From Bacteroidota bacterium (GTDB lineage: Bacteria; Bacteroidota; Bacteroidia; NS11-12g; UBA9320), in the NCBI GenBank assembly GCA_016124755.1, contig WGNA01000006.1:124001-188000 (forward strand): a DNA stretch of 64,000 bases, given 5' to 3'. This document shows, piece after piece, positions 11,014 to 14,110 of this stretch. Position 1 is the stretch's first letter. Each line of letters opens with the position of its first letter. Both the position numbers and the translations under genes were made by a program. Below the pieces are notes generated by a model that ran no database searches, was not told the origin of the DNA, and worked only from the letters and a program-made list of their open reading frames with translations.

Positions 11014-12936
11014 TCATTCATTCAATTTAATCGCTGAGATTTTAAGTTTTTGTAATTGACGATCGATGTTCATCCGGGCTTCATCACTTAAATACCAGCC
11101 GAGCGGAATATTTTCATGATCGTCGCGCCACAAGTGAATTTCTATGAGGTTGTCTCCGTATGCCGCGAGCAGATTACGGGCACTTTGCAACGCTTCATCC
11201 CCTGTGTTTTCCCAAATATTCGAAAAAGTAATCATGGGCGACATCAACTCAAACATACCCCGAACCGGTTTTTCACGACTGGTGGTTTTTGTATTTCGGA
11301 TAGCAATAAGATGAAACCTGACAGGAAATTCTCTGCGAACAGCAATCACTTTTAAAACCTCGTACACTTCGAGCATGGTTTTCACACCGAGGTTTTCATA
11401 ATAACCACCGTCAACCAGACTGCCCCAAACTTTTCCATTCGGTTTTCTAAGGAGTGCAGGTGGTGTCATAAACGGAAATCTGGAACTCAGGCCAATGGCC
11501 GTGCTGATGGGAATGTCGCATTGCAAGGTGTCTAAAACGTCTTTAATATGACCTTCCCGCAAACGGTTGAGTTTAACATTGCTGATCACTGCACGCATTC
11601 CACTTTCCACATGGGTTGAATTCAGAATAAAGAGTGGGAAGTCGTTGTTGGCAAAAGTGGAAATAAAGCCGTTGTTCCAATTGATGGTTGACTGGTTGTT
11701 GTTGCAGTATTTCCAGCCCTGTTCCCAACTGTGTTCTAAAATTCTCATCCGGTCAAATTTTACCACCGGAAAGGGAATAAACCGTTGAAGCATATCCTGA
11801 AATGTGAGTCCTGCGGTTACCGGCGCCAGATAATCCTCAGACAACATAAACCTTGAACAATTACTGATTTCACCGGGACTTTTATTGGTTACCGAACCCA
11901 GTACCATGGTTCCTAAAGCGCCACCCGAAACGGCGCTGTATGCATAAATGTGATTTACAAAATCCGGATGATCTTCATTGAGTTTTCCGATCACCCCGCT
12001 TGTCCAGTAGGCTGAGCGAATGCCGCCGCCTTCTGCCATAACCAGATAAACATCAAGACTGTCGCGATTCTGAAGATGCGTATTAACCCAATGCGTAAAA
12101 TGGTCTTCCAGATCCGGTCTTTCCGCAACTGCACCGTTCAGTTTTCGGATATCGTGGTTGTTGTTGAAAAAGGAGAAGAAAACCAGACAGAGAACTATCG
12201 TAAACGAAAGCGGGAATTTTAGATATTTTTCTAAGAACACAATCAGGGAAGCAATTATCAGCCACGACCCAAAGGCGAGTAAAACCACTGCAGCAGATCC
12301 CAGATATCGCGGAAGTGAAACCGGAAAAAGATAGATCGCTAAAAAGAGTAAGCCGACTACCAACAATCGGAAAACCACCCAGTGTTTTTGTTTGCTCCAG
12401 ATAAATGAAGCCGGATAGGTTCCATTTTTAATAGGAATGTAATCCGGAATAAAACCGTGAAACCACGGACGCCTTGCCCGGATCCAGACAATAATATTTT
12501 TTCGGTAATGCAGAAAAACGAAAAGCCAGATGCTGCTGCTGATCAGAATAAAGACGAATGAGGTAAACCTGCCGCGTGCCACATAAATTCCATAAGCCAA
12601 AAGCCAGTAGGGAATTAACGCGAGAATTCTCGGCACCAGAACCTGCGCTCTCAGTGAGTATGCCGGTTGGTAACTCCAGAAATTAAAATACGAGAAATGC
12701 AGCAGAACTCGGGAGGATCTGAACGATTGCCACGACCACCACGTAACAGCCAGATAAACCATTAACGTGTGTCGCAGAACAATTCCCTTTCCTTCAAATC
12801 CGATCGTTCTGAGAATATCCTGCCCCTGATCAAAACTCACCAGGGCGAAATATCCGATGGCAACAAACATCAGAATGAACCAGCAGTTTTTAACTACCAG
12901 ATAGTAATTGGATATCCGACGAAAGATCTTCCTCAA
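11014..12936 (-). CDS. membrane-anchored patatin-like phospholipase
   Basis: 640 residues, TTG start (12936); an in-frame stop lies just upstream and no ATG precedes the first helix. Residues 1-260 hold about seven hydrophobic segments. Residues 295-620 form a patatin domain with the oxyanion motif GGGIR (303-307), nucleophile elbow AVSGG (Ser337) and DGG (Asp509) for the Ser-Asp dyad. The elbow deviates from GxSxG in having Ala at its first position. Known patatins hydrolyse acyl esters of lipids. The membrane half suggests action on membrane lipids; which face the catalytic domain occupies is not clear. Confidence 0.82.
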   Translation of the reverse strand: MRKIFRRISNYYLVVKNCWFILMFVAIGYFALVSFDQGQDILRTIGFEGKGIVLRHTLMVYLAVTWWSWQSFRSSRVLLHFSYFNFWSYQPAYSLRAQVLVPRILALIPYWLLAYGIYVARGRFTSFVFILISSSIWLFVFLHYRKNIIVWIRARRPWFHGFIPDYIPIKNGTYPASFIWSKQKHWVVFRLLVVGLLFLAIYLFPVSLPRYLGSAAVVLLAFGSWLIIASLIVFLEKYLKFPLSFTIVLCLVFFSFFNNNHDIRKLNGAVAERPDLEDHFTHWVNTHLQNRDSLDVYLVMAEGGGIRSAYWTSGVIGKLNEDHPDFVNHIYAYSAVSGGALGTMVLGSVTNKSPGEISNCSRFMLSEDYLAPVTAGLTFQDMLQRFIPFPVVKFDRMRILEHSWEQGWKYCNNNQSTINWNNGFISTFANNDFPLFILNSTHVESGMRAVISNVKLNRLREGHIKDVLDTLQCDIPISTAIGLSSRFPFMTPPALLRKPNGKVWGSLVDGGYYENLGVKTMLEVYEVLKVIAVRREFPVRFHLIAIRNTKTTSREKPVRGMFELMSPMITFSNIWENTGDEALQSARNLLAAYGDNLIEIHLWRDDHENIPLGWYLSDEARMNIDRQLQKLKISAIKLNE

Positions 12937-13004
12937 GGCTTTTGAAATCTACCTTTAAAGTACAACATCGTAAACTGTAAAATGTCTGTCGGTCGCCATT
13001 TAAT

Positions 13005-13168
13005 CCCACAATATGCGTTAGAAAATCTACTGCGAGCACAAACCCAATCACCACGTGGATGAACGGCATTTTTCTCATTCACCATAGCGGTGCTATGCTT
13101 CATTCGTTCAATACCGCTTGGTTTCAGGTTTTGCGCTCTCGCTACGAAGTTCCAATGCATAATGTGGG
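13005..13168 (+). repeat. MITE-like element with imperfect terminal inverted repeats
   Basis: The 164-bp noncoding segment begins CCCACAATATGC (13005-13016) and ends GCATAATGTGGG (13157-13168). The ends are inverted copies matching at 11 of 12 positions, with weaker pairing continuing inward (GTTAGAA against TTCCAAT). Inside are a hairpin CATAGC-GGT-GCTATG (13083-13097) and a palindrome CCACGTGG (13051-13058). No target-site duplication is clear. It lies between the PorP-like gene and the patatin gene. I cannot test whether it is repeated in the genome. Confidence 0.5.
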
Positions 13169-13180
13169 TTAACTAACATG

Positions 13181-14110
13181 TCAATATATCCTTTTTAAGT
13201 TGTCGATCAGATTATCGGTTGATGGCTTTATTTTAAAGAGTGACTTGTTTAATGTGATTCGAAGTTGGTTGAAATCGAAACCCGCGTCTAACACCTGAAG
13301 GTAGGTAGTGCTGAAAAACATTTTCTTAAATCGCAGATTCAATCCGAATTCAATCTGTGGATGCGAATTGTTCATTTCATACTGACCAACAATTCCGAGA
13401 ATTTTGGAACTGAAAGTCAATCCTAACGAAAGCAGTTGATTGCTTCCTTTAACACTGTACAAAGCATTTGGTACCAACCGGGTTTCGTCACCAATCGGAA
13501 CAAAGCCGAACAACGATGCAGTGAGGTCGATTTTCGCGTTGTGTACCAGATTATTTTGGATGGAAATATCCGGTGTATTCAGGTTTCTGGCGCTAATTCC
13601 AAAAACCAGGTTTTTATACAGAACAGAAGCCCCTGCTCCCAAACGGAAATCGCGGTTGTTCAGTGAAAAATTATTCTTATTGGTTGAATCGAGTTGGTAA
13701 AAGAACCCTTCGAAATCTTTAATTAAATCTGAACTTGTGTTACCGGATTGCCCGAAAATTTTGTTTTCGAATTGAATGTCAGCCGCAAGACGTATATCGA
13801 TTCCAACCTTTGAAAAAACTTCGCGGGCGTATGAAGTTTTAAAAATACGTCGCTCCAGATCTTCATTCTGGTTCCCCTGATACGACATGCTCAGGTAGTT
13901 TTTGGAACCCAGAATACGCGATTCGAAACCGAGTAAATATTCGTCAGACTTATTCGATAAAATCCGGAAACGATTGAGCACTCCGCTAAATGCGGGATTG
14001 AGTTGTGCTAATGTGCTTAGTTCTTTATACCGCTGAAAATCGATGTCCTGAGCTTTAAGGCTATCGAAAAAAATCGAAAGGGTTGCGAACAAAAACCACC
14101 GGAGCTTCAT
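13181..14110 (-). CDS. PorP/SprF-family outer membrane protein
   Basis: 309 residues with a signal peptide ending near FDSLKAQD. QRYKELSTLAQLNPAFSGV is the hallmark of PorP/SprF, followed by repeated amphipathic beta strands (LRFKKMFFSTTYLQVL). PorP is needed for T9SS function, and SprF-like paralogs help secrete particular adhesins such as SprB. Such paralogs usually sit next to a large T9SS substrate; here the neighbour is the patatin gene, so the partner is not obvious. Confidence 0.85.
   Translation of the reverse strand: MKLRWFLFATLSIFFDSLKAQDIDFQRYKELSTLAQLNPAFSGVLNRFRILSNKSDEYLLGFESRILGSKNYLSMSYQGNQNEDLERRIFKTSYAREVFSKVGIDIRLAADIQFENKIFGQSGNTSSDLIKDFEGFFYQLDSTNKNNFSLNNRDFRLGAGASVLYKNLVFGISARNLNTPDISIQNNLVHNAKIDLTASLFGFVPIGDETRLVPNALYSVKGSNQLLSLGLTFSSKILGIVGQYEMNNSHPQIEFGLNLRFKKMFFSTTYLQVLDAGFDFNQLRITLNKSLFKIKPSTDNLIDNLKRIY

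Follow-up and report, generated by a model that had tools for sequence, protein, structure and literature searches.

The intergenic region between a PorP/SprF-like gene and a patatin-like gene, both on the minus strand, contains a 164-bp imperfect palindrome, and this raises the question of whether the palindrome belongs to its locus or is a mobile element that was inserted there. It lies in a stretch of 64,000 nucleotides, called the window below, which corresponds to positions 124001-188000 of contig C31 in a 4.05-Mb draft genome of 39 contigs (G000, the own genome). A first-pass annotation had read it as a MITE-like element, of a short inverted-repeat kind often moved by a transposase encoded elsewhere. 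Comparison of its copies and ends in many genomes makes it very probable that it is a non-autonomous transposable element (MITE) moved by an IS1380-family transposase encoded elsewhere.

The palindrome and its neighbourhood

The features of the locus are collected in Table 1. The inverted ends proposed by the first-pass annotation do match at 11 of 12 positions (CCCACAATATGC at 13005-13016 against the reverse complement of 13157-13168, CCCACATTATGC). Taken alone, this match is at chance level: inverted 12-bp pairs of the same quality, 100-250 bp apart, number 40 in the window for a mean of 44.6 in eight dinucleotide shuffles. The proposed interior hairpin is present at 13083-13097, where it forms the longest well conserved stretch of the interior, the element contains no ORF reaching 80 aa, and the boundaries are upheld by homologous copies. 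The element is placed immediately beyond the stop codon of the PorP/SprF-like gene, whose product also matches TIGR03519 (E 3.6e-10) yet stays under the cut-off of that model.

Table 1. Positions of the element, its parts and its neighbours in the window
Feature	Position	Strand	Basis
MITE, 164 bp	13005..13168	- (A→B strand, whose RNA folds better across the family)	Match to covariance model R1; repeats in the own genome
Left target-site duplication, TTAAT	13000..13004		4/5 identical to the right flank; TTNAA-like as in other copies
Right target-site duplication, TTAAC	13169..13173		Flank comparison
Terminal inverted repeat, B end, CCCACAATATGCGTTAG	13005..13021	+	Same end type on IS1380-family insertion sequences
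Terminal inverted repeat, A end, CCCACATTATGCATTGG (minus-strand reading)	13152..13168	-	End pattern; IS1380 ends
Central hairpin, CATAGC-GGT-GCTATG (minus strand: CATAGC-ACC-GCTATG)	13083..13097		Conserved to Algoriphagus and Rhodonellum
Neighbour, PorP/SprF-like membrane protein gene	13181..14110	-	Pfam PF11751, E 4.4e-7
Neighbour, patatin-like phospholipase gene, downstream	11014..12936	-	Pfam PF01734, E 2.5e-7

Folding of the whole element (taken as 13005-13172) gives a single imperfect hairpin, with z-scores of -6.3 for RNA of the minus strand, -6.1 for RNA of the plus strand and -3.2 for DNA (plus strand); none of 200 shuffles folds as well in any of the three cases. A covariance-model search of the window against Rfam at the gathering score gave no match. 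A repeat search of 12900-13300 was also negative, and the imperfection of the arms is the probable reason. The literature, searched by title or abstract start, provided no earlier description; preprints and most subscription papers lay outside this scope, so one may exist. The words CTAATGCATAA and TTATGCATTAG were found in no paper on bacterial repeats by title.

Dispersed copies, target duplications and an empty site

The own genome contains 11 matched pieces at E≤0.001 (63-100% identity), which correspond to about ten copies. Nine of them are two-ended, while the tenth (C1:295260) has a single recognisable end. Over its matched part, each of the five best other copies shows 81-92% identity with the window copy. 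End-like sites with up to three mismatches number 18 in this genome, for one site with a control pattern. Without flanks, the two-ended copies measure 164 bp (three copies), 184 bp (two), 194 bp (two), 72 bp and 52 bp, the last being a weak match (E 0.05). Exact 5-bp duplications flank six of these nine copies (TTTAA twice, TTAAA twice, TTGAA and ATAAT; permutation mean 1.2, p 0.00016), and the flanks of the other three, including the window copy, are identical at four of five positions.

Some of these copies are miniatures or carry inserts. The 72-bp (L041:8231-8312) and 52-bp (L047:4893-4954, the weak match) copies have kept their ends, and it is the first that bears the ATAAT duplication. 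In L043:369-562 and L045:5132-5325, arm B is interrupted at an identical spot by a 20-bp insert containing CCTGCCGGCAGGCAGG, while L042:4271-4474, L046:5187-5390 and a copy near 4761-4900 of L041 carry a hairpin insert of about 30 bp in arm A, of the TACTGACGACC...GGTGTCAG type.

Target duplications are also seen outside the own genome. In f16, a family of Cytophagales, 40 copies from 35 genomes, chosen for high score and not at random (L201 has the same sequence as L149), show 24 exact 5-bp duplications and 33 with at least four of five positions identical; the permutation mean is 10.2, and none of 100,000 permutations gave a value as high. These exact duplications include CTAAG/CTAAG, i.e., not only TTNAA. 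In a further set of other elements, 11 of 15 have exact duplications; this set counts the insertion sequence (IS) L115 as one of the 15 and omits the pairs with a doubtful second arm (L097, L102, L106) and the ISs with imperfect flanks (L114, L117, L120).

A relative provides the empty site. The patatin gene, sought in 39 genomes, is present in 15 including the own genome, and 13 relative loci were read, none of which contains a match to R1, the covariance model of the element, up to E 1. The PorP gene lies beside the patatin gene in two of the 13 (G001 and G005). G001 keeps both flanking genes with no element between them, and its gap measures 67 bp versus 244 bp here; the gap of the window minus the element and one target copy amounts to 75 bp, the two intergenic sequences being too diverged for base-by-base alignment. 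Both kinds of support called for by the first-pass annotation were thus obtained: the ends recur on several copies, and the site is empty in a relative. The element is short, contains no transposase gene and has shared terminal inverted repeats, target duplications, dispersed copies and an empty site in G001, as is found for MITEs.

A palindromic, mostly intergenic sequence with many copies and a GTAG in its A arm could also be of the REPIN or GTAG-REP kind, with a Y1 tyrosine transposase (RAYT) as its mover. REPINs consist of 20-40-bp REP units that are tagged with GTAG at one end, and they lack target duplication (GTAG/CGTC REPs were compared from the accessible part of PMC3733652), whereas the element is one unit of about 164 bp whose GTAG is internal, has exact 5-bp target duplications and shares its ends of about 17 bp with DDE-type ISs. 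This explanation is therefore extremely improbable.

Ends shared with IS1380-family insertion sequences

CCC ends and 5-bp duplications are traits of the IS1380 family, and they prompted the idea of an IS1380 helper. The support for this idea came from other genomes, after a negative test in the own genome: no match to an IS1380 transposase was found in this 39-contig draft or in two carrier relatives, and in the order, matches are limited to 3 of 108 genomes, with none above the cut-off. The draft state of the assembly could hide an IS copy. The domain PF01609, searched in five genomes, gave one match each in three of them, that of the own genome being at C23:5599-6096.

The ends themselves are widespread. 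Sites with the AACCCRNNTTATGCATTRG core (at most one mismatch) occur in 17 of 108 genomes of the order, with two control hits, and sites with TTNAACCCRNNTTATGCATTRG (type CCCRNNTTATGCATTRG, at most one mismatch) occur in 39 of 395 genomes of the class, with 267 sites including those of the own genome and again two control hits. Such ends are found both on short gene-less elements and on IS1380-family ISs. Among 29 loci of the class that were read, 13 end pairs, three of them doubtful, bound stretches of 62-374 bp. The interiors of these stretches are mostly different, and L086, L090, L091 and L110 share the core of the window element.

Other sites are of a different kind. Single-arm matches such as L052, L054 and L093 were rejected, as they are probably due to chance or coding sequence. 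The highest count, 76 sites, is that of G434, a class genome of 2.4 Mb. In two genomes (L098 and L099), such an end lies about 510 bp from the ORF of a small protein that looks HTH-like by eye, and a short conserved ORF separates the two; this is possibly a larger passenger element, whose second end was not found.

An end of this type adjoins what is left of an IS1380 transposase in both G306 and G222 (NF033539, E 1.2e-25 for G306). Furthermore, four complete IS1380 elements have such ends and duplications identical at all five positions: L115 (TTTAA), L186 (TTAAT), L187 (TTCAA) and L188 (TTTAA). They are 1.39-1.42 kb long, have open frames of 440-456 aa and score 253.8, 261.0, 259.6 and 258.5 bits, respectively, with NF033539. 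Their ends deviate from the pattern by zero and three mismatches in L187, one and one in L188, and three and four in L115, while one end of L186 reads CCCAAATTAAGCATTAG. The five other IS1380 loci with an inverted repeat have imperfect flanks (4/5 in L120 and L185; 2/5 in L114, L117 and L182). These nine loci come from 13 of 50 that passed an ORF filter, and the search required CC/GG ends, so it was neither unbiased nor complete.

The presence of IS1380 is also associated with that of the ends at the genome level. In the class, IS1380 matches occur in 18 of 39 end-positive genomes versus 39 of 356 others (odds ratio 7.0, p 3.6e-7), or 14 of 39 versus 22 of 356 if only matches at E≤1e-8 are counted. 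In f16, they occur in 21 of 63 R1-positive genomes versus 26 of 133 others (p 0.048), or 17 of 63 versus 12 of 133 at E<2e-8 (p 0.002); in both comparisons, the stricter cut was chosen after the tables were seen. No IS1380 match was found in 21 of the 39 end-positive genomes of the class and in 42 of the 63 R1-positive genomes of f16. A candidate helper alongside the element is seen in the carrier G670, a single-contig genome, where the L187 IS coexists with 14 or more R1 matches.

Among the elements matched by R1, different end subtypes exist. The copies read in G569 and G494 have CCCGGAATTGTCATTAG at one end and CCCGGATTTGTCATTAG at the other, and an IS1380 in G492, which belongs to the same genus as G569, has the ends CCCAAAATTGTCATTAG and CCCAGAATTGTCAATAG. 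The end variants of MITE and IS thus agree on one side within one genus (CCCGGAATTGTCATTAG and CCCAAAATTGTCATTAG), in different species, since G569 has no IS1380 match and G492 no R1 match. The agreement is not universal: in G550, the MITE has the ends CCCAAATTTGTTATTAG and CCCAAAATTGTCATTAG, whereas the one IS1380 that was examined has ends of the CCCAAATTAAGCATTAG type.

The ends could be used by another DDE transposase, for example of IS1634 or another IS4-group family, the match with IS1380 being incidental. This would fit the negative searches in the own genome and its order, and L115 and L114 score weakly with IS1634. These scores (60.6 and 55.6 bits) are below the family cut-off of 100, and such ends stand at both boundaries of several IS1380 elements, four of them with exact duplications; the matching end variants within one genus and the genome-level association also argue against another transposase, which is very unlikely.

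The mover is thus most likely an IS1380-type transposase, because ends of the same type are found on IS1380 ISs, four of which have exact 5-bp duplications. A DDE transposase of this family, encoded elsewhere, would recognise the ends of about 17 bp, act in trans on the element and insert it at 5-bp TTNAA-like targets, which would be duplicated. The helper would since have been lost from the own genome, whose copies look like old leftovers of earlier activity because no IS1380 match was found there and none above the cut-off in the order. With no helper detected in the own genome, we infer the dependence on IS1380 from the ends and not from a finding in that genome. The transposase 'encoded elsewhere' of the first-pass annotation is therefore assigned to the IS1380 family by ends in other genomes, and none was detected in the own genome. 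By eye, the interior of the MITE does not resemble the IS1380 interiors examined, which indicates that it is no simple deletion derivative of those.

Covarying interior, strand preference and known systems

A scan for the central hairpin over genome_contigs (one genome per species for 84,980 species, genomes very near the own genome having perhaps been left out) gave four loci, which belong to an uncultured Cyclobacteriaceae bacterium, a Bacteroidetes MAG, Rhodonellum psychrophilum and an Algoriphagus MAG; Rhodonellum and Algoriphagus are Cytophagales. In an alignment of ten diverse copies, including that of the window (184 columns), 24 of 53 pairs have changed on both sides, and none of 500 shuffles gave as many. 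The covariance model R1 was built from these ten copies, and the window copy covers all its 176 positions (13000-13173 with flanks; 170.2 bits). At E≤0.001, R1 finds matches in 63 of 196 genomes of f16, which includes Rhodonellum (G554), with at least 14 scored copies in ten of them. All the matches listed span model positions 1-176, and 46 of 52 A→B matches measure 173-178 bp with flanks (range 168-204).

Among 53 aligned matches (52 distinct, one row, L013, being on the opposite plus strand), 45 of 53 base pairs have changed on both sides, and 92.9% of paired cells can pair versus 79.2% in shuffles, these alignments having been fitted to R1, which favours the structure; sliding the partners lowers the value to 28-43%. 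Elements with these ends are spread over the class, and the hairpin interior is kept with base-pair covariation. This extends the first-pass reading of a moved short inverted-repeat element: the mobility stands, and the class-wide ends and the conserved, covarying interior go beyond it.

The top copies fetched within G508, G505, G561 and G533 are on average 86-96% identical and up to 100%, which is consistent with recent spread in these genomes. In G009 (L017:1319-1757), an element of about 170 bp lies inside a repeat of about 438 bp, which has its own inverted ends (about 34 bp, 91%). Over this repeat, eight other loci are 96.7-99.5% alike and one, L018, is broken up, and it seems that an outer element captured the smaller one and spread recently.

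The A→B strand, which is the minus strand in the window, gives the better RNA fold in 50 of 51 copies, after one opposite-strand match was dropped and duplicates were merged (50 of 52 rows before). Shuffle-corrected z-scores favour it in 42 of 51 rows (mean -8.7 versus -6.9), a set that leaves out the lowest-scoring row, L006, and keeps one duplicate. One-sided changes give 141 G-U versus 24 A-C cells (40 rows), with a structure derived on that same strand; with pairs predicted from both strands, the counts are 31 and 9 (41 rows), and the consensus energies are -35.6 versus -10.6. Within four genomes (51 copies), 61 one-sided changes lead to G-U and 16 to A-C. Unpaired positions in the same genomes lean likewise, 66 to 37 (Fisher p 0.032), so part of the asymmetry may be mutational. 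Taken together, these data suggest that selection likely acts on a single-stranded, perhaps RNA, form of the A→B strand, and mutation bias or palindrome correction may contribute. Template switching at quasi-palindromes could also yield compensatory changes.

The orientation of flanking genes relative to the element was counted for 52 copies: ++ 16, +- 15, -- 14, -+ 5, and two undetermined on one side. The upstream gene is co-oriented in 31 cases and opposed in 19, and the downstream gene in 22 and 30; these are raw counts based on simple ORF picks, and five copies overlap the picked ORF. Only 5 of 52 copies lie between divergent genes, and between tandem genes the orientations are nearly balanced (16 versus 14), so simple read-through regulation is not indicated, and the orientations do not support a role in read-through RNA.

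These counts also bear on a rival explanation, in which the palindrome would not be mobile but would belong to the neighbouring operon as a fixed structured RNA or regulatory element. The long conserved fold with covariation and the strand preference would suit such an RNA. Nevertheless, about ten copies are dispersed in the own genome, target duplications flank them, the same intergenic place in G001 is empty, and between tandem genes copies lie both with (16) and against (14) transcription. This explanation is therefore highly improbable.

For a MITE moved by an IS1380-type transposase, the strand data allow a tentative proposal. The element may be a mobile carrier of a strand-specific hairpin of about 165 nt, with conserved internal loops and the central CATAGCAYCGCTATG hairpin. 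In several families of Bacteroidia, selection would act on this structure as RNA (or single-stranded DNA), and the body would keep its fold while the ends change to fit the available IS1380 subtype.

Bacteroidota thus gain a MITE family that is widespread, has a likely helper and, in its interior, combines base-pair covariation across many genera with a clear strand preference. If this covariation reflects an RNA function, such MITEs would do more than travel passively between transposase sites, and the element would lend itself to asking what these hairpins do for the element or the host. Some intergenic hairpins of Bacteroidota genomes would be explained as insertions.

The element resembles IS1380-family ISs (L115, L187, L188) in the type of its ends, which start with CCC, and in its TTNAA-like 5-bp duplications; unlike them, it lacks a transposase gene, and its interior is dissimilar to the IS interiors examined. 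In the accessible parts of the sources, IS1380 is used as an outgroup of eukaryotic piggyBac (PMC10813416), and the Paracoccus IS1247 is given with a 5-bp direct repeat (PMC3281130). Other MITEs of Bacteroidota share their ends with an IS: as described in the available portions of the papers, those of P. gingivalis match IS5-family elements (PMC4596501) and MITECca01 of Cardinium matches IS982-family elements (PMC9769881). They differ from the window element in the IS family and in sequence. ERIC/IRU and NEMIS/Correia are also small palindromic mobile elements, for which effects at the RNA level, such as mRNA stability and cleavage by RNase III or RNase E, are reported in the consulted sections of PMC2229807 and PMC10969869. 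Compared with these, as far as those sections describe them, the window element has other ends and another sequence, an identifiable helper family, and pairing with covariation between genera.
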